Source: an uncultured Lachnospiraceae bacterium
GTDB lineage: Bacteria; Bacillota; Clostridia; Lachnospirales; Lachnospiraceae
Direction of reading: 5' to 3'
Assembly (NCBI GenBank): GCA_947174705.1
Contig: CAMWKB010000009.1
Coordinates: 1 to 41,302 of the forward strand
DNA length: 41,302 nucleotides
Shown here: positions 7,335 through 16,534 of the stretch, piece by piece
Layout of the letters: every line of letters begins with the position of its first letter
Position numbering within the stretch: position 1 is the stretch's first letter
The notes under the pieces: generated by a model
Told to the model about the DNA's origin: nothing
Database searches by the model: none
The model's input: the letters and a program-made list of their open reading frames with translations, nothing else
Program-made: the position numbers and the translations under genes

Positions 7335-7970
7335 ATGTCAACCAACAATGTAACGCTGTACTTAAAGGCTGAACAAAACGTAGAATTACAGTCTGAGGAT
7401 GTTTATATCAAAGATATCGGAAAGCTGACCTGTAAGGATGAGCATATCCTGGCTAAGGTAAAGGCTATTAAACTTTATCATTTTAAAGAGGGAGAAAAGA
7501 AAAGACAGGTCATAAGTATACTGAAGGTGATTGAAGAGATTGAAACGGCTTTTCCCAATGTGACGGTGGAAAACTTAGGCGAGATTGATGTTTTGGTGGA
7601 ACAAATTGATGTTGATAAGCATAAAGGGGCCGTGCAGACGATAAAGATTATATTTGTGTCTGCAATCAGCTTTTTCGGAACCGCTTTTACAATTATGGCG
7701 TTTCACAATGATATTGGGATTAATGACGTATTTACCAAAGTTTATGAAATGGTTATGGGGCAGGCAAGCGACGGCTATGGAATTTTGGAGCTTTCGTATT
7801 CTATTGGGCTTGCAGTCGGTATTATTGTCTTTTTCAATCATATAGGGGGCCGGCGTATTACAAAAGACCCTACGCCTATCGAGGTGGAGATGCGCGTATA
7901 TGAAGCCGATGTAAATAAGGCTTTGATAGAGACTGCGGACAGGGAAGGAAAAATGATAGATGTTAATTAG
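7335..7970 (+). CDS. spoVAA: Stage V sporulation protein AA
   Basis: A 211-aa protein matching SpoVAA. An N-terminal soluble part (residues 1-100) starts VTLYLKAEQNVELQSEDVYI.DI and contains the VLVEQ region; two membrane spans follow (about 103-122 and 147-168), then a short cytosolic tail with DPTPIEVEMR. SpoVA proteins form the spore inner-membrane channel that moves dipicolinic acid. The gene overlaps spoVAB by 11 bp. A forespore sigma-G promoter is expected; CATAATA at 7305-7311 fits a sigma-G -10, but I see no convincing -35. The ribosome binding site is weak (AAGAAAGTG). Confidence 0.85.
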   Translation: MSTNNVTLYLKAEQNVELQSEDVYIKDIGKLTCKDEHILAKVKAIKLYHFKEGEKKRQVISILKVIEEIETAFPNVTVENLGEIDVLVEQIDVDKHKGAVQTIKIIFVSAISFFGTAFTIMAFHNDIGINDVFTKVYEMVMGQASDGYGILELSYSIGLAVGIIVFFNHIGGRRITKDPTPIEVEMRVYEADVNKALIETADREGKMIDVN

Positions 7971-8460
7971 GCAGATATTTATGGCGGTTTTGGGTATAAG
8001 TTTCGGATTTGTTGTATCGGGCGGGGTTTTTACGGTACTCTTATCCGTTGGGCTGATTCCGCGTTTTGCAGGTAAGATGCATATAGCAAAGCACATTTTC
8101 ATACTGGAGGAAATGGTGGTCTTAGGAACCCTTGTGGGTGATTTTGCCAGTGTATTCAGCGACAATGCCTATTTTGGGGAATGGATACTTTCTCATGATG
8201 TATTTGGCGTTTCACTTACAGGGACGGTCTGGAGTATGATAGGTAACGCTTTAATGATAATATTCGGACTTTTTTCGGGTATATTTGTGGGGGCGCTGGC
8301 GCTTGCAATTGCAGAGATGCTTGACACAATACCGATTTTCTCAAGAAGAATCGGGTTTAGGCATGGACTTGGGATTGCGATTCTGGCGGTAGCGCTTGGA
8401 AAACTTGTGGGGAGCTTGATTTACTTTACGCAGAGTGTGTATCTTTATGGAGGGGTATAG
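7960..8460 (+). CDS. spoVAB: Stage V sporulation protein AB
   Basis: A 166-aa protein with four or five membrane spans, matching SpoVAB. Recognisable parts are the glycine-rich first span (FGFVVSGGVFTVLLSVGLIP), the LEEMVVLGTLVGDFASVF segment, and the C-terminal ALAEMLDTIPIFSRR-type stretch (here ALAIAEMLDTIPIFSRRIG). It overlaps the end of spoVAA and is followed 31 bp later by spoVAC, as in classical spoVA operons. It acts with SpoVAA and SpoVAC in the spore inner membrane for dipicolinate passage; the individual role of AB is not defined. Confidence 0.85.
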   Translation: MLIRQIFMAVLGISFGFVVSGGVFTVLLSVGLIPRFAGKMHIAKHIFILEEMVVLGTLVGDFASVFSDNAYFGEWILSHDVFGVSLTGTVWSMIGNALMIIFGLFSGIFVGALALAIAEMLDTIPIFSRRIGFRHGLGIAILAVALGKLVGSLIYFTQSVYLYGGV

Positions 8461-8491
8461 AAAATTATAAAAAGAAAGAGAGGTATTATAC

Positions 8492-8989
8492 ATGGAACAA
8501 AATAATCAAGGCATACAGCAGGATAAAAATAAACAGGCAGACAGCAGTGCCGGAAATAAGAAGTATCAGGAGCAGGTGAAGGCTTTGACGCCCACACATA
8601 ATCTGTTAGTTCAGATGCTTAAAGCATTTTTGGTTGGAGGAATTATCTGCTGCATAGGGCAGGCTATTTTAAACTATGCAACAAATAGCATGGGGCTTGA
8701 TAAGGAGACTGCGGGTGCGTGGTGTTCCATGCTGCTTGTTTTGCTCAGCGTAGTGCTTACAGGCTTAAATATTTATCCAAGACTGGTTGAATGGGGCGGT
8801 GCAGGCGCGTTGGTGCCGATTACGGGATTCGCCAATTCGGTATCGGCTCCTGCGATTGAATATAAGAAGGAAGGACAGGTTTTTGGTATTGGATGCAAAA
8901 TCTTTACGATAGCCGGACCGGTTATTCTGTACGGAATATTTACCAGTTGGATATTGGGAGTGGTTTATTGGATGGTTTCGTATATTTGA
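8492..8989 (+). CDS. spoVAC: Stage V sporulation protein AC
   Basis: A 165-aa protein with a hydrophilic Gln/Lys-rich N-terminus (1-40), then the SpoVAC pattern MLKAFLVGGIICCIGQ, NIYPRLVEWGGAGALVPITG and FANSVSAPAIEYKKEG, and four or so membrane spans. In B. subtilis SpoVAC behaves as a mechanosensitive channel and is one of the core channel subunits. A GAGAGG site precedes ATG. The usual next gene, spoVAD, does not follow: the next 477 bp hold palindromes and a promoter, then a translation GTPase. Either spoVAD/AE lie elsewhere or the operon was broken here. Confidence 0.9.
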   Translation: MEQNNQGIQQDKNKQADSSAGNKKYQEQVKALTPTHNLLVQMLKAFLVGGIICCIGQAILNYATNSMGLDKETAGAWCSMLLVLLSVVLTGLNIYPRLVEWGGAGALVPITGFANSVSAPAIEYKKEGQVFGIGCKIFTIAGPVILYGIFTSWILGVVYWMVSYI

Positions 8990-9022
8990 GAGTATGATTG
9001 CGAATGTTCAATTCAGAGCCAC

Positions 9023-9129
9023 GAACTTAGGGACGGACACAGGCGTTATAAACAAAAAGAGGGGTGCGACCGCGGGAGCGAACTTACCCCTCCCTTTTGT
9101 TTATAACGCCTGTGTCCGTCCCTAAGTTC
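9023..9129. repeat. Palindromic element 1 (107 bp, MITE/REP-like)
   Basis: Left arm 9023-9057 and right arm 9095-9129 are perfect 35-nt inverted repeats ending in GAACTTAGG/CCTAAGTTC. Inside, AGGGGT (9060-9065) pairs with ACCCCT (9086-9091) around a 20-nt loop (9066-9085) that contains CGC-GGGA-GCG, i.e. a 3-bp stem closed by a GNRA-type tetraloop. A T-rich stretch follows the inner stem, as in a terminator core. It follows spoVAC by 33 bp. No ORF or transposase is inside. Confidence 0.85.
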
Positions 9130-9180
9130 TGGTTATTGGGAATTCAACTCTTCACTATCAAATTCCGTCCAAATTTTCAT

Positions 9181-9210: not shown

Positions 9211-9262
9211 TTGACATTGGAAAACTAATAGGGAAATTGCAAAACTCCCCTTTCAATACCCA

Positions 9263-9347
9263 GAACTTAGGACAATATAAATAAAAAGGCGGGGTGAGTT
9301 CGCTCCCGCGGTCGAACCCCGTTTTTTATTTATATTGTCCTAAGTTC
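9263..9347. repeat. Palindromic element 2 (85 bp), inverted relative to element 1
   Basis: Perfect 25-nt arms at 9263-9287 and 9323-9347, again ending in GAACTTAGG/CCTAAGTTC. The inner stem is CGGGGT (9290-9295) with ACCCCG (9316-9321), then TTTTTT. The 20-nt loop (9296-9315) equals the reverse complement of the element 1 loop at 18 of 20 positions, so this copy lies in the opposite orientation. The arms differ in sequence and length from element 1, yet pair perfectly. The inner stem plus T-run makes a terminator-like core inside the leader of the downstream gene. Confidence 0.85.
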
Positions 9348-9466
9348 GTCCGCATGAACCCACTTTCGCAATTACCCAAAGAAATTCACCCCAATGACTA
9401 TACTTACTCCACATTTTGTCCTATAATAAAAACGATTACTAAATCATGGGAAATGGGATTTGACAG

Positions 9467-12190
9467 ATGGATAGAAAGAAACTGGCGCTGGGGATTCTGG
9501 CACACGTTGATGCCGGTAAAACGACATTGGCGGAAAGTATGTTATATATAAGCGGCAGCATACGAAAAGCCGGACGTGTGGATCATGGGGATACCTTTCT
9601 TGATACCGATGCCCAGGAGAGGACAAGAGGAATTACTATTTTCTCTAAGCAGGCTGAGTTTTCATGGAATAATATGGATGTAACCCTGCTTGACACACCG
9701 GGGCATGTGGATTTTTCTGCGGAGATGGAGCGTACACTGCAGGTGCTTGATTATGCGGTGCTTCTTATAAGTGCGGCTGACGGCGTGCAGGGGCATGTGC
9801 TTACGTTGTGGAAGCTGCTGGAGCGCTATGATATTCCGGTTTTTTTATTTATAAATAAAATGGACCAGCCGGATACTGACAGGGAGCTATTGCTTAAAGA
9901 GCTGCAGGAGCGTTTGAGCGCACAGTGTATTGATTTTACATTTGAGGGTGATGAGGCGTTTGCTGAGAGTCTTGCCGTATGTGATGAAGAAATGCTGGAC
10001 AAGTACCTTAATAACGGAAAGCTTGAAACAGAAGATATTGCGGCGCTTATAAAGCAAAGAAAAGCCTTTCCCTGCTATTTTGGCTCTGCCCTGAAAATTG
10101 AAGGGGTGGATACACTTTTAGACGGAATTCAGAAGTATACTCTCGATACGCAGTATCCTGATGTTTTTGGAGCAAGGGTATATAAAATCGGCAGGGATGA
10201 TGCCGGGACCCGTCTCACATATATGAAGATTACAGGAGGAAAGCTTACCGTAAAGCAGACTCTTCAGGACAGGAACGGAGAGTGGGAAGAAAAAGCGGAT
10301 CAGATCAGGATTTATTCGGGTGTTAAGTACACTATGGAAAAAGAGGCAGCAGCAGGTACAGTCTGCGCGGTAGCGGGACTTAGCCGGACTTTTTCGGGAG
10401 AAGGGCTTGGTTTTGAAGCTGACTCCATAACTCCGCTTCTTGCACCGGTGCTTACCTATAGAATTATGTTGCCGGAGGGCAGCGATGTACATGTGATGTA
10501 CAAAGAGTTATGTAAACTGGAAGAAGAGGAGCCGCTTTTGCATATCGTATGGAAAGAGCAGCTTGGTGAGATTCATGCACAGCTTATGGGAGAAGTGCAG
10601 ATAGAAATTTTGAAAAATCTGATAGCAAACCGGCTTGGCGTGGATGTCGAATTTGACTCAGGCAGTATAGTATATAAAGAAACAATCAGTGACGCTGTAG
10701 AGGGAGTAGGGCATTTTGAACCTCTGCGACATTATGCTGAAGTACATCTTATGTTAGAGCCGCTTGAGGCAGGAAGCGGTCTGGTATTTGATGTAAGATG
10801 CAGCGAGGATGTGCTTGATAAAAACTGGCAGCGTCTGGTACTTACACATTTGGAAGAAAAAGAGCATATCGGAGTCCTTACCGGTTCTCCGATTACCGAT
10901 ATGAAGATAACATTAATTGCCGGAAAAGCGCATTTAAAGCATACTGAAGGCGGCGATTTCAGGCAGGCTACTTACCGCGCCATAAGGCAGGGGTTGTGTA
11001 AAGCGGAAAGTATATTGTTGGAACCGGTTTATGAGTTCAGGTTAGAGCTGCCCTCTGCAATGATAGGGAGGGCTATGTCGGATATTCAGGCTATGCATGG
11101 CCGTTTTGATACGCCGATGGTAGAGGGCGATATGTCAATATTGACCGGTACGGTCCCTGTTGCAACGATGCAGGGCTACCAGACAGAAGTGATGTCATAC
11201 TCCGGCGGACTTGGAAGGGTGTTTATGTCCTTAAAAGGATATGAACCCTGTCATAATGCCGAAGAAGTAATAGAGAAGGCCGGTTATGATGCCGAAAGCG
11301 ATTTGGATAATCCGCCTTCTTCCGTATTTTGTGCTCATGGCGCAGGTTTCGTGGTGCCTTGGTATGAAGTGGAAGATTATATGCATGTGGAGAGTGCATT
11401 TGGCAGAAGTGTGAGACCGGACTGTATGCAGGATACGGTCAATGAAGCCGGCGAAATAAAGTATCAACCAAACCGGTCAACAGGTCGTTCCGACAGCGAC
11501 ATCAATGTCAGCGATAAAGAATTAGAAGAAATTTTTCACCGTACTTACGGGAATAAGGAGCAAACAGTTCCCGGAAGAAAAAACCCGGGCTATCATAAAA
11601 TAATACGCGCCGGAGATAGTAACAACGCAGGATACAGAGCTAAAAAGGCCTCCGATGAAAAAAAGGACGAATATCTGTTGGTGGACGGCTACAACATTAT
11701 TTTTGCATGGGAAGAGTTGGAGGAACTGACTAAAATCAGCTTAGACAGCGCAAGAGGGCGGCTGATGGAAATCTTAAGCAACTATCAGGGCGCCCATAAG
11801 ATGAATCTTATTCTGGTATTTGACGCATACAGGGTAAAAGGAAATCCGGGCAGTGTCCAGACCTATCATAATATACATGTGGTTTATACAAAGGAAGCTG
11901 AGACTGCAGACCAGTACATTGAGAAAGTTACACATGAAATAGGTAAAAAGCATAATGTGACAGTAGCAACCTCAGACGGCCTTGAGCAGATTATAATTAT
12001 GGGACAGGGTGCAAGGCGTATGTCTGCAAGGGAATTAAAAGAGGATATTATGTCAACCAATCAGGAGCTGAGAAACTTGTTTAAAGATAAAGTTTCGGAT
12101 GGGAAACAGTATTTATTTGATACAGTGGAAGAAGAACTGGCAGAGAAGCTGGAGGATGTCAGGATGGGAAAGCGTGAGTTTGACAATTAG
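9467..12190 (+). CDS. EF-G/ribosomal-protection-type GTPase fused to a Rae1/YacP NYN endoribonuclease domain
   Basis: A 907-aa protein. Residues 1-~665 are a translation GTPase of the TetM/EF-G type: P-loop AHVDAGKTT (12-20), switch-1 RGITI (54-58), DTPGH (76-80), NKMD (130-133), then EF-G-like domains including EPVYEFRLELP and a CAHGAGF segment. In domain IV, the loop that in TetM reads YSPVSTPADFR is here HLKHTEGGDFR (489-499), so a tetracycline-resistance role is doubtful. A polar linker (~665-735) leads to a Rae1/YacP-like NYN nuclease domain: LLVDGYNIIFAW (D740), TKEAETADQYIEK (D815), ATSDGLEQ (D837) and GQGARRMSARELK. In B. subtilis, stand-alone Rae1 cuts mRNA in the ribosomal A site. 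I infer a ribosome-targeted GTPase carrying a tethered nuclease. The ribosome binding site is weak (GGGA); the Mrp operon begins 56 bp downstream. Confidence 0.88.
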   Translation: MDRKKLALGILAHVDAGKTTLAESMLYISGSIRKAGRVDHGDTFLDTDAQERTRGITIFSKQAEFSWNNMDVTLLDTPGHVDFSAEMERTLQVLDYAVLLISAADGVQGHVLTLWKLLERYDIPVFLFINKMDQPDTDRELLLKELQERLSAQCIDFTFEGDEAFAESLAVCDEEMLDKYLNNGKLETEDIAALIKQRKAFPCYFGSALKIEGVDTLLDGIQKYTLDTQYPDVFGARVYKIGRDDAGTRLTYMKITGGKLTVKQTLQDRNGEWEEKADQIRIYSGVKYTMEKEAAAGTVCAVAGLSRTFSGEGLGFEADSITPLLAPVLTYRIMLPEGSDVHVMYKELCKLEEEEPLLHIVWKEQLGEIHAQLMGEVQIEILKNLIANRLGVDVEFDSGSIVYKETISDAVEGVGHFEPLRHYAEVHLMLEPLEAGSGLVFDVRCSEDVLDKNWQRLVLTHLEEKEHIGVLTGSPITDMKITLIAGKAHLKHTEGGDFRQATYRAIRQGLCKAESILLEPVYEFRLELPSAMIGRAMSDIQAMHGRFDTPMVEGDMSILTGTVPVATMQGYQTEVMSYSGGLGRVFMSLKGYEPCHNAEEVIEKAGYDAESDLDNPPSSVFCAHGAGFVVPWYEVEDYMHVESAFGRSVRPDCMQDTVNEAGEIKYQPNRSTGRSDSDINVSDKELEEIFHRTYGNKEQTVPGRKNPGYHKIIRAGDSNNAGYRAKKASDEKKDEYLLVDGYNIIFAWEELEELTKISLDSARGRLMEILSNYQGAHKMNLILVFDAYRVKGNPGSVQTYHNIHVVYTKEAETADQYIEKVTHEIGKKHNVTVATSDGLEQIIIMGQGARRMSARELKEDIMSTNQELRNLFKDKVSDGKQYLFDTVEEELAEKLEDVRMGKREFDN

Positions 12191-12246: not shown

Positions 12247-12708
12247 ATGATTTTATTATATTTTTGCTTATGGGTAATATTTAACGGACAACTGACATTG
12301 GAGATTGCGATATTCGGCGTGTTCATATCAGCGGCGTTATTTGCGTTTACCTGTAAATTTGTAGACTACAGCATAGAAAAAGAAAAGAGGGTTTTTAAAA
12401 ATTTTTTCAGAATAATTCACTATATTTTTGTGCTTATTATAGAAATCGTTAAGGCGAATATGGCGGTCATCCATCTTATTTTGACACAAAAAGAGGAACC
12501 ACAGCCGCAGCTTGTAACGTTTACGTCAGATTTAAAGACACCAATCGGGCGCTCGATGCTTGCCAATGCGATTACGCTTACGCCGGGAACGATTACGGTG
12601 ATTCTTGAAGATAATAAGTATACGGTTCATTGTCTCGATGAAGATTTTTCCGAAGGAATAGATGAACTTGTTTTTGCACAGATAATAAAGAAATGTGAGG
12701 AAGCATAG
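12247..12708 (+). CDS. mrpE: Mrp-type antiporter subunit E
   Basis: A 153-aa protein with two or three N-terminal membrane spans, then VKANMAVIHLIL and the MrpE signature NAITLTPGT (about residues 106-114), ending in a small cytosolic domain. MrpE is a structural subunit of the multi-subunit Na+/H+ antiporter. AAGGTGA (12231-12237) precedes ATG. It is the first gene of a ten-gene operon in the order E, F, G, DUF4040, B, C, then four antiporter-like subunits, and starts 56 bp after the translation GTPase fusion. No strong promoter is visible in that gap, so read-through from upstream is possible. Confidence 0.9.
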   Translation: MILLYFCLWVIFNGQLTLEIAIFGVFISAALFAFTCKFVDYSIEKEKRVFKNFFRIIHYIFVLIIEIVKANMAVIHLILTQKEEPQPQLVTFTSDLKTPIGRSMLANAITLTPGTITVILEDNKYTVHCLDEDFSEGIDELVFAQIIKKCEEA

Positions 12709-12723
12709 GGGGTGCGTTTATAG

Positions 12724-13050
12724 ATGAAAACGGGAATACCGGCGCTTGACCAGGCATATGAAATCTTATTTATAGCGGTACTGCTTGTTTTGGCAATCAT
12801 GGTCATACTTTGTCTTGTCCGTGCAATAAAGGGGCCAAGGGTTGCCGACAGAATCGTTGCGACCAATATGATGGGAACGATTGTTATGGTTATTATTGCC
12901 ATATTTGCGATTATGCTGGATGAGGGGTATCTGGCGGATATCTGTATTATATATGCGATGATAAGCTTTCTGGCAGTTATTGTGCTTACTAAGGTTTATA
13001 TGGGAGTTTACAGGGAGAAGAAAGGAGAGGGAGAAAATGGAAGTAATTGA
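12724..13050 (+). CDS. mrpF: Mrp-type antiporter subunit F
   Basis: A 108-aa protein with three membrane spans and the MrpF motif IKGPRVADRIVATNMMGT (about residues 36-53), which marks the loop between the first two spans. The third span (LADICIIYAMISFLAVIVLTKVY) is typical. AGGGGGTG (12707-12714) precedes ATG, and the gene follows mrpE by 15 bp. It overlaps mrpG by 14 bp. MrpF is a small structural subunit of the cation/proton antiporter, also called MnhF or PhaF. Confidence 0.9.
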   Translation: MKTGIPALDQAYEILFIAVLLVLAIMVILCLVRAIKGPRVADRIVATNMMGTIVMVIIAIFAIMLDEGYLADICIIYAMISFLAVIVLTKVYMGVYREKKGEGENGSN

Positions 13051-13393
13051 GTGGATACGGTTTGGTATTGGCGCTCTATTCATGCTCTGCGGCCTTCTTA
13101 TCTTTGTGATAGAAATGGTTGGCGTGTTTCGGTTTAAATATGTTCTTAACAGGATGCATGCCGCTGCGCTCGGGGATACCCTTGGCATAGGCTGTTCACT
13201 GATAGGGCTTATGATAATAAGCGGACTTAATTTTACCTCGCTTAAGCTTTTTTGTGTCATTGTATTTTTATGGTTTTCTTCACCTACATCCTCACATCTT
13301 ATTGCAAGACTGGAGGTTGCAACTGATGAAGAGCGGGAGGAGCATTATTTGCTGAAAGAGCTTACGGATTCTAAGAAGAAAGCCCAGAGCTGA
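13037..13393 (+). CDS. mrpG: Mrp-type antiporter subunit G
   Basis: A 118-aa protein with three membrane spans and the MrpG motif RMHAAALGDTLGIG in the first loop, then FLWFSSPTSSHLIARLE. The start is placed at ATG 13037, after AAAGGAGAGGGAG; the open frame extends 19 codons further upstream, but those residues are charged, lie inside mrpF and have no binding site. The 14-bp overlap with mrpF suggests translational coupling. MrpG is a small structural subunit of the antiporter. Confidence 0.9.
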   Translation: MEVIEWIRFGIGALFMLCGLLIFVIEMVGVFRFKYVLNRMHAAALGDTLGIGCSLIGLMIISGLNFTSLKLFCVIVFLWFSSPTSSHLIARLEVATDEEREEHYLLKELTDSKKKAQS

Positions 13394-13413
13394 TAGAAAG
13401 GTGTGATTTTGAT

Positions 13414-13698
13414 ATGCAGTTATTTATATACATTTTGCTTGCATTTTTGATTTTGTGCGCTATAGCGGCAAGTTTATCCAAGAATCTTTTGAATACTATT
13501 TTAATTTTTATGTCGTACAGTCTGATAATGTCAATTATATGGATAATCCTTGAGGCGCCGGATTTAGCGATTACGGAGGCTGCGGTAGGAGCCGGGGTTA
13601 CCAGCGTATTGTTCTTTGTTACGTTAAAGAAAATACGGGCTATGGTTAAGACTGATAATGAGGAAGGGGAGAAAGGCAATGAGCAGGAAAATTCCTGA
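13414..13698 (+). CDS. DUF4040/MbhD-like Mrp subunit (MrpA C-terminal module as a separate protein)
   Basis: A 94-aa protein with three membrane spans. The pattern ILEAPDLAITEAAVGAGVTS (about residues 46-65) is the DUF4040 signature found near the C-terminus of classical MrpA and in MbhD of archaeal membrane-bound hydrogenases. Here it is a separate small gene. AAAGGTG lies upstream of ATG. The charged C-terminal end overlaps the start of mrpB by 20 bp. It is the membrane part that, in Mrp/Mbh structures, sits between small subunits and the antiporter-like subunits. Confidence 0.82.
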   Translation: MQLFIYILLAFLILCAIAASLSKNLLNTILIFMSYSLIMSIIWIILEAPDLAITEAAVGAGVTSVLFFVTLKKIRAMVKTDNEEGEKGNEQENS

Positions 13699-14647
13699 CA
13701 AGGAGTATGAAAAGACACTTTCTTTTCGTTTAAAGAGATGGCTTGACGGTACGAAGGATGCATTTGTCGATACCGTAGAAATGAAAGAACAAGAGGAATT
13801 TAAAGAAGACGACACGGTTGTCATAAATAGGACAAAGGAAAGACAGCAGCGTATGGCAAGGGTTTATGACCTTGCAAACAACTTGGGAATAAGCGGTTTT
13901 AACAAGCTGTACAGGATTTTCTGCGTATGCTTTTGTCTGTTTTTAGTGCTTATGTTACTGATAGCAGTGTCATTTCTGCCCGCATACGGACACCCGGAGA
14001 ATCCGGTAAATAATGAGGTGGCAAAGCGTTATATAGAGGACGGACTACAAGAGACCGGTTCGGTCAATATTGTAACGGGCATGATTCTGGACTACAGGGC
14101 CTTTGATACGTTAGGCGAATCCCATGTTCTTTTTATTGCAACCTGTACTGTACTCATCCTGCTTCGTAAAGACAGGAAAAAAGACGAGCATGGCAATAAT
14201 ATAGATGTGAGCGACAGAATCTATGAGCCTAAAAATGATGTGATTCTGCAGACGGCAGCACGTGTGCTTGTACCGCCGATCATCATCTTCGGAATATATG
14301 TTGTTCTTGGCGGACATTTAGGACCGGGCGGAGGCTTTTCAGGCGGAGCCATTATAGGCGCAGGCTTGATCTTATATCTGAATGCTTTTGGCTTTAAGAA
14401 GACGGAGCGCTTTTTTACGGGAAAAACATATAAGATACTGAGTGTATGCGCACTTGGCTGTTACTGTCTGGCAAAGAGTTATTCGTTTTATACCGGAGCC
14501 AACCATATTGAGAGCATAATACCTCTTGGAACGCCGGGGGCAATCCTCAGCAGCGGCCTTATTCTTATTTTGAATATCTGCGTTGGAATTGTTGTTGCCG
14601 GAACCATGTATACTTTCTATGTTATGTTCCGAAAAGGAGATTACTAA
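13679..14647 (+). CDS. mrpB: MrpB with N-terminal MbhE-like extension
   Basis: A 322-aa protein. Residues 1-75 are a charged cytosolic extension. One membrane span follows and then an MbhE/MrpA-C-terminal-like module with NIVTGMILDYRAFDTLGESH. The C-terminal half is a standard MnhB domain: LVPPIIIFGIYVVLGGHLGP, GGGFSGGAIIGAG and four spans. Classical MrpB is about 140 aa, so this is an MbhE-MrpB fusion. ATG 13679 follows GGGGAG (13666-13671) at 7 nt; an in-frame ATG at 13658 lies inside the upstream gene and lacks a good site. The gene ends 1 nt before mrpC. Confidence 0.88.
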   Translation: MSRKIPDKEYEKTLSFRLKRWLDGTKDAFVDTVEMKEQEEFKEDDTVVINRTKERQQRMARVYDLANNLGISGFNKLYRIFCVCFCLFLVLMLLIAVSFLPAYGHPENPVNNEVAKRYIEDGLQETGSVNIVTGMILDYRAFDTLGESHVLFIATCTVLILLRKDRKKDEHGNNIDVSDRIYEPKNDVILQTAARVLVPPIIIFGIYVVLGGHLGPGGGFSGGAIIGAGLILYLNAFGFKKTERFFTGKTYKILSVCALGCYCLAKSYSFYTGANHIESIIPLGTPGAILSSGLILILNICVGIVVAGTMYTFYVMFRKGDY

Positions 14648-14648
14648 A

Positions 14649-15026
14649 ATGGATTTTGGAAATATTTTTGTAAATTATGAAGAAGCCGTATCAATGATTT
14701 TGTTCGGCATCGGTTTCTCCAATCTGCTGATGCAGAAAAATCTGATAAAGAAAATCGTGGGCATGAACATAATGGATACTTCCATGTATCTTTTCCTTGC
14801 GCTGAAAGGATATATATCAGGCCGTAAGGCGCCCATAGTAGTAGACGGTGTACAGAGCGTGGAAGCTTATATAAATCCTATTCCAAGCGGTCTTGTGCTG
14901 ACGGGAATCGTCGTATCCGTTTCGGTAACCGCACTTATGCTTGCGCTTACCATACGTTTGTATAACAGATATCATACGTTGGATCTGGACGAAATATCCA
15001 CGAGGCTTAAAAAGGAGGGATTGTGA
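14649..15026 (+). CDS. mrpC: Mrp-type antiporter subunit C (NuoK-like)
   Basis: A 125-aa protein with three membrane spans, homologous to NuoK. The MrpC region KKIVGMNIMDTSMYLFLALKG is clear, followed by VEAYINPIPSGLVLTGIVVS and a last span LMLALTIRLYNRY. ATG 14649 follows AAAGGAGA (14633-14640); an upstream in-frame ATG at 14583 lies within mrpB and is rejected. The stop TGA overlaps the ATG of the next gene by one base (14024-type TGATG overlap at 15024-15028), implying coupled translation. Confidence 0.9.
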   Translation: MDFGNIFVNYEEAVSMILFGIGFSNLLMQKNLIKKIVGMNIMDTSMYLFLALKGYISGRKAPIVVDGVQSVEAYINPIPSGLVLTGIVVSVSVTALMLALTIRLYNRYHTLDLDEISTRLKKEGL

Positions 15027-16534
15027 TGGCATTTGTACAGAATTTTCCCTTTATATCCATATTGCTTTCACTTTTTGCAGGCCCTATATCTTCGGTGCTT
15101 GATAAAAAGTGGGCAAAGCGGCTGAATCTGTTTGTAATTGTTGCAATAGGAATTATGTCAACCGCCGTACTTATTTTTGTGCTTGGAAGCGGGCAGGAGT
15201 ATGTCTATACAATGGGGCATTTTCCGGCGCCCTGGGGCAATGAAATCAGGGTCGGTATTTTGGAAGCGGCTATGGCATTGTTTTTCTGCGTGGTTATGTT
15301 TTTGTGCGTAATTGGCGGCGTACTTGAGCGTGAGCTTGAAATAGAAGAGACCAAGCATAATTTGTATTATATTATGGTAAACCTCTTACTCTGCTCGCTG
15401 TTAGCGCTTATCTACACTAACGACCTGTTTACGGCTTATGTGTTTGTGGAAATTAATACGATATCGGCCTGTGGACTGATTATGATAAGACAGACCGGAA
15501 GGACGATTGAGGCGGCAACCAGATATATGATCATGAGCCTGCTCGGTTCGGGTCTGCTTTTGCTCGGAATCTGCTTTTTATACAGTCTGACAGGACATTT
15601 GCTGATGAGTAATATCAAGGGACAGGTGGCTCTTATTCAGGCAGCAGGAGCGTATCAGGTTCCGTTGCTTACCGCTATCTGCCTTATGTCGGTGGGACTT
15701 GCGATTAAAAGCGCGCTTTATCCGTTTCATACATGGCTGCCCGATGCATATGGATATTCAACTCTTTCATCAGCGGCGATTTTGTCCTCATTGGTTTCAA
15801 AAGGATATATTTTCCTGCTTGTAAAAATCTTTTACCGTGTGATCGGTTTTGACATTATTAAAGAAAGCAAGGTTATAAACGTACTGTTTGTGTTCGGTAT
15901 TGCAGGTATGATAATGGGTTCGGTCAGCGCGATCAGGGAGAGCGATATACAGCGCATGATAGCTTATTCGTCGGTGGCGCAGATTGGTTATATTTATATG
16001 GGCTTTGGTCTTGGAACTACCGCGGGTATAATTGCAAGCATATATCATATTCTTTCCCATGCCGCCACCAAATCGCTTTTATTTATTGCCTCATCGGGAA
16101 TTACCGATGCTTCGGGAAAAAGCAACGACTTTTTTGACTTAACGGGCTCCGGCTACCGAAACAGGCTGGCCGGCGCAGCATTTACGGTAGGTTCGCTGTC
16201 AATGGTCGGAATACCGATGTTTTCGGGCTTTATATCCAAATTGCTGTTCGCTCAGGCGGCGCTTGAAAACAGACATAAGATATTGATTGCTCTGCTTGCG
16301 CTTGCAATCAGTACTGTTTTGAATACAGTCTACTTCCTCAAAACCGTTATCCGCATTTATACTCCTGAAAAAAGGGAAGTTGTTATAGATAAAGGATTTC
16401 AGGATGTTGCGATATGGGAACAGTCTTCTAAAAGCATTGCGATGATATGTCTTATCGCACTGAATCTGTTCCTTGGTCTGTGTTCCGAACCGCTTGTTGC
16501 GTTGATTGAGCGTGGACTTGAGATGTTTGCATAA
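15026..16534 (+). CDS. mrpD: Antiporter-like subunit 1 (MrpD/NuoM/NuoN family)
   Basis: A 502-aa protein with about 14 membrane spans of the proton-translocating ND2/4/5 family. The key charged residues are kept: Glu in span 5 (E142 in YVFVEINTISA) and Lys in span 7 (K228 in LAIKSALYPFHTWLPDAYG). The region YSSVAQIGYIYMGFG and a His-rich SHAATKSLLF helix are also typical. ATG 15026 follows AAAGGAGG (15011-15018); the GTG at 15023 is too close. Of the four large subunits it looks closest to classical MrpD by length and position after mrpC. Confidence 0.88.
   Translation: MAFVQNFPFISILLSLFAGPISSVLDKKWAKRLNLFVIVAIGIMSTAVLIFVLGSGQEYVYTMGHFPAPWGNEIRVGILEAAMALFFCVVMFLCVIGGVLERELEIEETKHNLYYIMVNLLLCSLLALIYTNDLFTAYVFVEINTISACGLIMIRQTGRTIEAATRYMIMSLLGSGLLLLGICFLYSLTGHLLMSNIKGQVALIQAAGAYQVPLLTAICLMSVGLAIKSALYPFHTWLPDAYGYSTLSSAAILSSLVSKGYIFLLVKIFYRVIGFDIIKESKVINVLFVFGIAGMIMGSVSAIRESDIQRMIAYSSVAQIGYIYMGFGLGTTAGIIASIYHILSHAATKSLLFIASSGITDASGKSNDFFDLTGSGYRNRLAGAAFTVGSLSMVGIPMFSGFISKLLFAQAALENRHKILIALLALAISTVLNTVYFLKTVIRIYTPEKREVVIDKGFQDVAIWEQSSKSIAMICLIALNLFLGLCSEPLVALIERGLEMFA

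Follow-up and report, generated by a model that had tools for sequence, protein, structure and literature searches.

Introduction

The closest described relatives of the gene considered here are the Bacillus subtilis nuclease Rae1 (YacP; PF05991; PDB 5mq8 and 5mq9), the tetracycline ribosomal protection proteins Tet(M) and Tet(O), the elongation factor EF-G, and a group of clostridial Tet-NYN fusions. We describe here a gene with the architecture of this last group, encoded on a 41,302-nucleotide stretch of contig CAMWKB010000009.1 of an uncultured Lachnospiraceae bacterium (the window; that is, the whole stretch of DNA analysed, read on its forward strand), in which a translational GTPase is joined in a single frame to a Rae1-type nuclease. 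We propose, at roughly even odds, that its product is the sole Rae1 found in this genome, tethered to a GTPase of the ribosome-binding type, and that it acts as a housekeeping factor for paused ribosomes and not in drug resistance.

How Rae1 reaches paused ribosomes is, to our knowledge, an open question. Domain IV is the part of EF-G and Tet(M) that enters the decoding site, and the histidine at the tip of this domain in EF-G matters for translocation. The B. subtilis collision factor MutS2 shows no sign of mRNA cutting in the available portion of PMC10897456. The clostridial fusions occupy one sentence in the available portion of Atkinson 2015 (PMC4342817), which notes the same architecture in ten species of Clostridiales, files the proteins under Tet and proposes a role in resistance, whereas the proteins described here make up a clade of their own, appear to replace rae1 and are encoded by a near-core gene of Lachnospiraceae. 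The original prediction for this locus knew of no experimental account of such a fusion, and we likewise found no experimental work among the open-licence PMC papers listed by our searches, although the architecture itself has been in print since 2015. Relative to that portion of PMC4342817, four points go beyond the printed architecture: the role as the Rae1 of a lineage, the operon slot left empty, a GTPase distinct from Tet and a conserved linker motif.

Domain architecture and conservation

The features of the gene are collected in Table 1. The nuclease domain matches NYN_YacP at 1.2e-52 (178.7 bits against a curated cut-off of 24.6) and has the Rae1 fold with its conserved acidic cluster, and the N-terminal half carries the signature of the EF-G superfamily, with the GTPase motifs and domains G, II, III, IV and V. 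Domain II is below its Pfam cut-off (EF-G_D2, 17.4 against 27), and its span lies within residues 1-611 of the AlphaFold2 (AF2) model, which match EF-G in structural comparison. The model has a predicted local distance difference test (pLDDT) score of 84.5, falling below 50 in the linker at residues 648-683 and 695-728.

These assignments bear out the original prediction that a GTPase and a Rae1 (YacP) domain share one open reading frame (ORF) at 9467..12190, and they support its view of a ribosome-type GTPase that carries a tethered nuclease. The GTPase motifs and three of the acidic residues (D740, D815 and D837) lie where it placed them, and D786 is a fourth invariant acid. Its linker of about 70 residues was too short, as some 140 residues separate domain V from the nuclease and comprise both a C-terminal extension and the linker proper. 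Apart from a break in the linker of one genome, considered below, homologues do not show a stop or frameshift between the two domains, which would have spoken against the fusion: both halves are in one ORF at all 31 fetched loci, the window included, that were chosen for long frames. A search with just the NYN domain gave the same picture, as 75 of its 80 best named loci are fusions in one ORF. An assembly accident or chance is ruled out as the source of the fusion.

Conservation was calculated from an alignment of 70 fusions, as mean majority identity per region. Domain IV, at 0.84, is the most conserved part, ahead of the NYN core at 0.77 and the G domain at 0.70, and G486, H489 and K491-R499 of its tip loop are invariant. 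The P-loop, DTPGH and NKMD residues are also invariant, except for A16 (Ala in 66, Ser in four) and M132 (at least 90%), as are all four acids of the nuclease and C622 of the C-terminal extension. Judged from these residues, both halves retain their catalytic signatures. Mean identity falls to 0.25 in the linker (residues 646-732), within which a short motif stands out, with E685 present in 66 fusions, I689 in 69, and R692 and T693 in 62 each; its strict pattern matches 84 of 125 fusion rows, in which some genomes are represented more than once. No such segment is present at the start of the fetched stand-alone Rae1 proteins or at the end of the aligned GTPase-only proteins, and the motif is thus a feature of the fused form.

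Table 1. Coordinates of the fusion gene, its parts and the adjacent gene clusters (window positions; residues of the 907-residue product)
Feature	Positions	Strand	Basis or remark
Fusion gene: translational GTPase, extension, linker, Rae1/YacP NYN nuclease	9467..12190	+	Single uninterrupted ORF, 907 residues
G domain (7-224)	9485..10138	+	Pfam GTP_EFTU, 2.2e-52
P-loop (12-20, AHVDAGKTT)	9500-9526	+	Inside G domain
DTPGH (76-80)	9692-9706	+	Inside G domain
NKMD (130-133)	9854-9865	+	Inside G domain
EF-G-like domains II and III (236-396)	10172..10654	+	Pfam EFG_III (327-396) above cut-off; structural match to EF-G
EF-G-like domain IV (400-514)	10664..11008	+	Pfam EFG_IV, 3.4e-18
Domain IV tip loop (486-499, GxxHxKHTEGGDFR)	10922..10963	+	Alignment with Tet and EF-G
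EF-G-like domain V (517-597)	11015..11257	+	Pfam EFG_C, 1.8e-18
C-terminal extension (598-645; SVFCAHGAGFVVPW...MH; SVFCAHGAGF...W...MH)	11258..11401	+	Common to fusions and GTPase-only sisters
Variable, disordered linker (646-735, about 90 residues)	11402..11671	+	Conservation and pLDDT
Conserved linker motif (683-695, ELxxIFxRTYG); predicted helix 683-694	11513..11551	+	Alignment of 70 fusions; AF2 model
NYN_YacP/Rae1 nuclease domain (737-899; D740, D786, D815, D837)	11675..12163	+	Pfam NYN_YacP
spoVAA-AB-AC	7335-8989		Upstream; sporulation genes
Mrp-type Na+/H+ antiporter cluster	12247-16534		Downstream

Relationship of the GTPase to Tet proteins and EF-G

The description of the GTPase as TetM-type in the original prediction is loosely right, but the protein lies outside the Tet/Otr clade. 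A tree of 61 GTPases, including 36 hand-picked fusions, places all of the fusions in one clade (100/97), together with a broken copy (L094) and a GTPase-only plasmid gene (L233). The sister clade (100/98) comprises seven GTPase-only proteins, five from Lachnospiraceae with a stand-alone rae1 and two from other Bacillota, and the fusions and these sisters together form a clade of their own (100/99). The Tet/Otr clade (100/99; six rows, Tet(M/O/S/W) and two otr(A)-like proteins) is separate from the fusions, EF-G also forms a separate clade, and two more GTPase-only proteins (L101 and L131) are placed on the Tet side. With the NCBIfam model tet_protect the fusion scores 421.7, below the cut-off of 775 and compared with 879.8 for the Tet(M) control, while another fusion, two GTPase-only sisters and L233 score 379-430. 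The score with the EF-G equivalog TIGR00484 is 293.5, also below its cut-off (659.4), and identity to EF-G in structure alignments is about 21-30%.

The Tet loop SPVSTPADFR is replaced by KHTEGGDFR in the fusions, such that the drug-displacing loop is missing, whereas the domain IV tip histidine, which aligns with that of EF-G, is kept. Lys491 occupies the column of Tet(M) Pro509 in 70/70 fusions, but Pro509 is present in the four Tet controls; this proline lies in the drug site according to the available part of PMC8161019. In domain IV, identity to the window protein averages 0.70 among nine other fusions and 0.60 among seven sisters, compared with 0.28 both among four Tet proteins and among three EF-G proteins. 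The fusions and all seven aligned sisters carry the C-terminal extension, which none of the aligned Tet or EF-G rows has; the Tet proteins have a different tail in its place. On these sequence comparisons the GTPase half forms a subfamily of its own next to the Tet proteins, distinguished from them further by its nuclease and by being a near-core gene.

The emptied operon slot and the origin of the nuclease

In B. subtilis, rae1 is found in the context cysS-mrnC-rlmB-rae1-sigH, which is the usual but not the universal setting of the gene. Of 30 fetched stand-alone rae1 genes, 28 are near rlmB (L052 and L056 are the exceptions), and of two further named stand-alone genes one (L224) is inside the cluster and the other (L166) is without any cluster gene in its 16.5 kb. 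The fusion differs from Rae1 both in the addition of the GTPase through the 90-residue linker and in lying outside this cluster, although the homology of the domain is unaffected; rlmB, mrnC and cysS are in the fetched stretch of none of 33 fusions (the window, 30 fetched genomes and two plasmids). The cysS-mrnC-rlmB cluster is nonetheless retained without rae1 in 13/13 fused genomes, including that of the window. In ten of these emptied clusters sigH is next, and in the other three, again including the window's own genome, it is not within the 1.5 kb fetched.

A tree of the NYN domain (74 rows, with a bootstrap that is not quite settled) gathers the fused domains and 12 stand-alone genes of the family or near it into one group (98/94), in which the branching order is unresolved, with 21 other stand-alone genes outside. 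From the operon-slot and NYN-tree evidence, the most likely source of the fused nuclease is the rae1 of the lineage itself. The genomes seen carry either a fused or a stand-alone rae1, and the fusion appears to stand in for the separate gene.

Distribution

In the window's own genome (84.5% complete) the single YacP is the fusion gene. We sampled the family with 200 Lachnospiraceae genomes from 199 genera, in which 180 have a YacP match; match rows were seen for 167 of these, the rows of the other 13 being left out, and in 148 of the 167 YacP is inside a frame of at least 840 residues. This length is a proxy for fusion that was correct for 20/20 such family genomes fetched. One fusion is doubtful (G178), as its 931-residue frame has a GTPase match of 6e-73 that is far weaker than those of confirmed fusions, in a check that scored six of 14 candidates. 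Ten fetched family genomes carry a true stand-alone rae1, and the remaining seen rows are contig edges, shorter frames and breaks, among them a frame break within the GTPase part in G140. A fusion and an intact stand-alone rae1 were not seen together in any genome; G039 has a second fragment, located at a contig edge, and in G154 two copies lie on different contigs. All 20 family genomes without YacP also lack this GTPase. By these matches the fusion is near-universal in Lachnospiraceae, where it is almost always the sole YacP.

GTPase matches of 1e-50 or better occur in 45 genomes of a 398-genome phylum sample, and at least 23 of these are in a fusion-length frame, spread over ten families; the census scored three candidates per genome, and 23 is a lower bound. 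Named fusions include Mediterraneibacter, Roseburia, Hungatella and Blautia. The five of 80 named loci that are not counted as fusions are the two stand-alone genes mentioned above, L162, which is cut by a contig start, and two ambiguous loci, L170 and L174, each no more than 160 bases from a contig start and preceded by an in-frame stop; the frame before L174 resembles the start of the linker motif.

Mechanism and alternative explanations

A plausible mechanism can be drawn by analogy with EF-G and Tet(M). The GTPase would bind the factor site as these proteins do, inserting its strongly conserved domain IV into an empty aminoacyl (A) site, and GTP hydrolysis would let domain IV withdraw. The tethered NYN domain would then take the A site and cut the mRNA, after which the truncated message would be degraded and the ribosome rescued. 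The two domains would act in turn, because both should not fit the A site together, and we estimate that the flexible linker of about 90 residues should reach from domain V to the A site. In its strongest form this would be a one-chain, mRNA-cleaving stall factor in which GTP hydrolysis passes the A site from domain IV to Rae1, with the linker helix as a switch or docking element; we offer this form tentatively.

Several observations weigh against the proposal that the fusion is a housekeeping Rae1 for paused ribosomes, and especially against strong coupling. The coupling of GTP hydrolysis to cleavage is something that we infer. Three of the ten fetched stand-alone-rae1 Lachnospiraceae genomes are without such a GTPase (two of them incomplete, at 67% and 87%), two genomes (G540 and G590) have a GTPase-only gene, 45% identical, with no YacP match, and therefore each half can do without its partner. 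The gene as a whole is also dispensable in some members, since both halves are missing from a tenth of the family sample. The frame is broken inside the linker in G042 (L288 1014-3699), giving two overlapping ORFs, through either fission or a sequencing error. The plasmid gene L233, which has no NYN domain, lies beside the Monoglobus fusion (98/86) within the fusion clade, on a long branch and with an odd composition, and apparently lost its nuclease part after transfer. Lastly, a search of the window's own, incomplete genome for transfer-messenger RNA found none above the cut-off, although the same search passed in just nine of 14 control genomes.

Some of these observations equally suit a tether without coupling, in which the GTPase holds Rae1 near ribosomes and each half has its own job. 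The long, disordered and variable linker, the separate existence of stand-alone rae1 and the GTPase-only sisters, and the one copy that appears to have lost its NYN domain fit this explanation, which we regard as possible but somewhat doubtful, since fusion-length frames are spread across ten families, a short helix is conserved amid the variable linker, and no genome clearly pairs a fusion with an intact stand-alone rae1. A different question is whether the nuclease targets the ribosomal RNA (rRNA) or transfer RNA (tRNA) of GTPase-bound ribosomes, in maturation or quality control, and not mRNA in the A site. NYN domains were first proposed to act in rRNA and tRNA maturation (as reported in the available part of PMC4342817), and the genes that ancestrally adjoined rae1 bear annotations as mini-ribonuclease 3 (mrnC) and a 23S rRNA methyltransferase (rlmB); however, B. 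subtilis Rae1 cleaves mRNA in a translation-dependent manner according to the portions available of PMC10100781 and PMC12320835, the fusion gene is no longer in the mrnC-rlmB operon, and such a target seems unlikely.

The reading of Atkinson 2015 is that of a tetracycline ribosomal protection protein with an added ribonuclease, in which the GTPase dislodges the drug and the nuclease acts on drug-stalled ribosomes. The fusion does score nearer to Tet than to EF-G with the hidden Markov models and adjoins the Tet clade, a plasmid copy from Agathobacter rectalis bears a TetM/TetW/TetO/TetS family label, and a chromosomal 'tetM' of Bacillus toyonensis, a protein outside the sample of the GTPase tree, confers resistance (PMC5209696, in the part available). 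The tet_protect score, the position outside the Tet/Otr clade, the lysine in place of Pro509, and a domain IV that is no closer to Tet than to EF-G all argue otherwise, as does the near-core status of the gene. An attenuator such as that upstream of tet(M) is not enriched either, with candidates by a rough in-house method within 150 nt of 18/102 fusion genes compared with 30/200 control genes. We therefore consider this reading improbable, and of the original prediction's 'stalled or drug-bound ribosomes' the drug-bound half is the less likely, given the clade, the score and the missing loop.

Genomic neighbourhood and mobile copies

The neighbours of the fusion gene in the window are sporulation and antiporter genes, another point of difference from EF-G, and neither spoVAA-AB-AC nor the Mrp cluster is a common neighbour of fusions elsewhere. 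Among 108 fusion loci, 29 at most share a neighbour cluster, and the largest clusters differ in position and orientation from locus to locus. We considered and rejected a mobile or defence gene, as PADLOC gave no match and there is no constant neighbour cluster. Two palindromic repeats lie 5' of the fusion gene, at 9017-9130 and about 9262-9350, the former having 20 matches in its own genome, itself included, and thus belonging to a dispersed repeat family. An Rfam scan of the window at gathering scores gave no match.

Plasmid copies exist in Agathobacter rectalis and Monoglobus, and the plasmid search gave just two records with a coverage of at least 80%. The former copy is annotated as a TetM/TetW/TetO/TetS family tetracycline resistance protein and the latter as a translation factor GTPase family protein. 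The A. rectalis fusion (L234 2628-5429) adjoins a gene for a BrnT toxin and a CopG antitoxin gene. The GTPase-only gene L233 (2983-4917) is on plasmid p612A of Ligilactobacillus salivarius and is also labelled TetM/TetW/TetO/TetS family. Two phage records, both unannotated 'Bacteriophage sp.' from faeces, cover at least 80%; these (MT835563.1 and MT835514.1) contain the greater part of a fusion gene, with identities of 58% and 50%, and are possibly bacterial contigs.

Significance

At least one public record, that of Agathobacter rectalis, lists this gene as a tetracycline resistance protein, a label that the sequence does not support. A fusion of Rae1 with a GTPase, together with the loss of the separate gene from its operon, hints that the nuclease acts jointly with a GTPase at the factor site, and such cooperation becomes testable in a single protein. 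If the proposed mechanism is true, a GTPase that delivers its own nuclease would be the form that Rae1 normally takes across a large gut-bacterial family.
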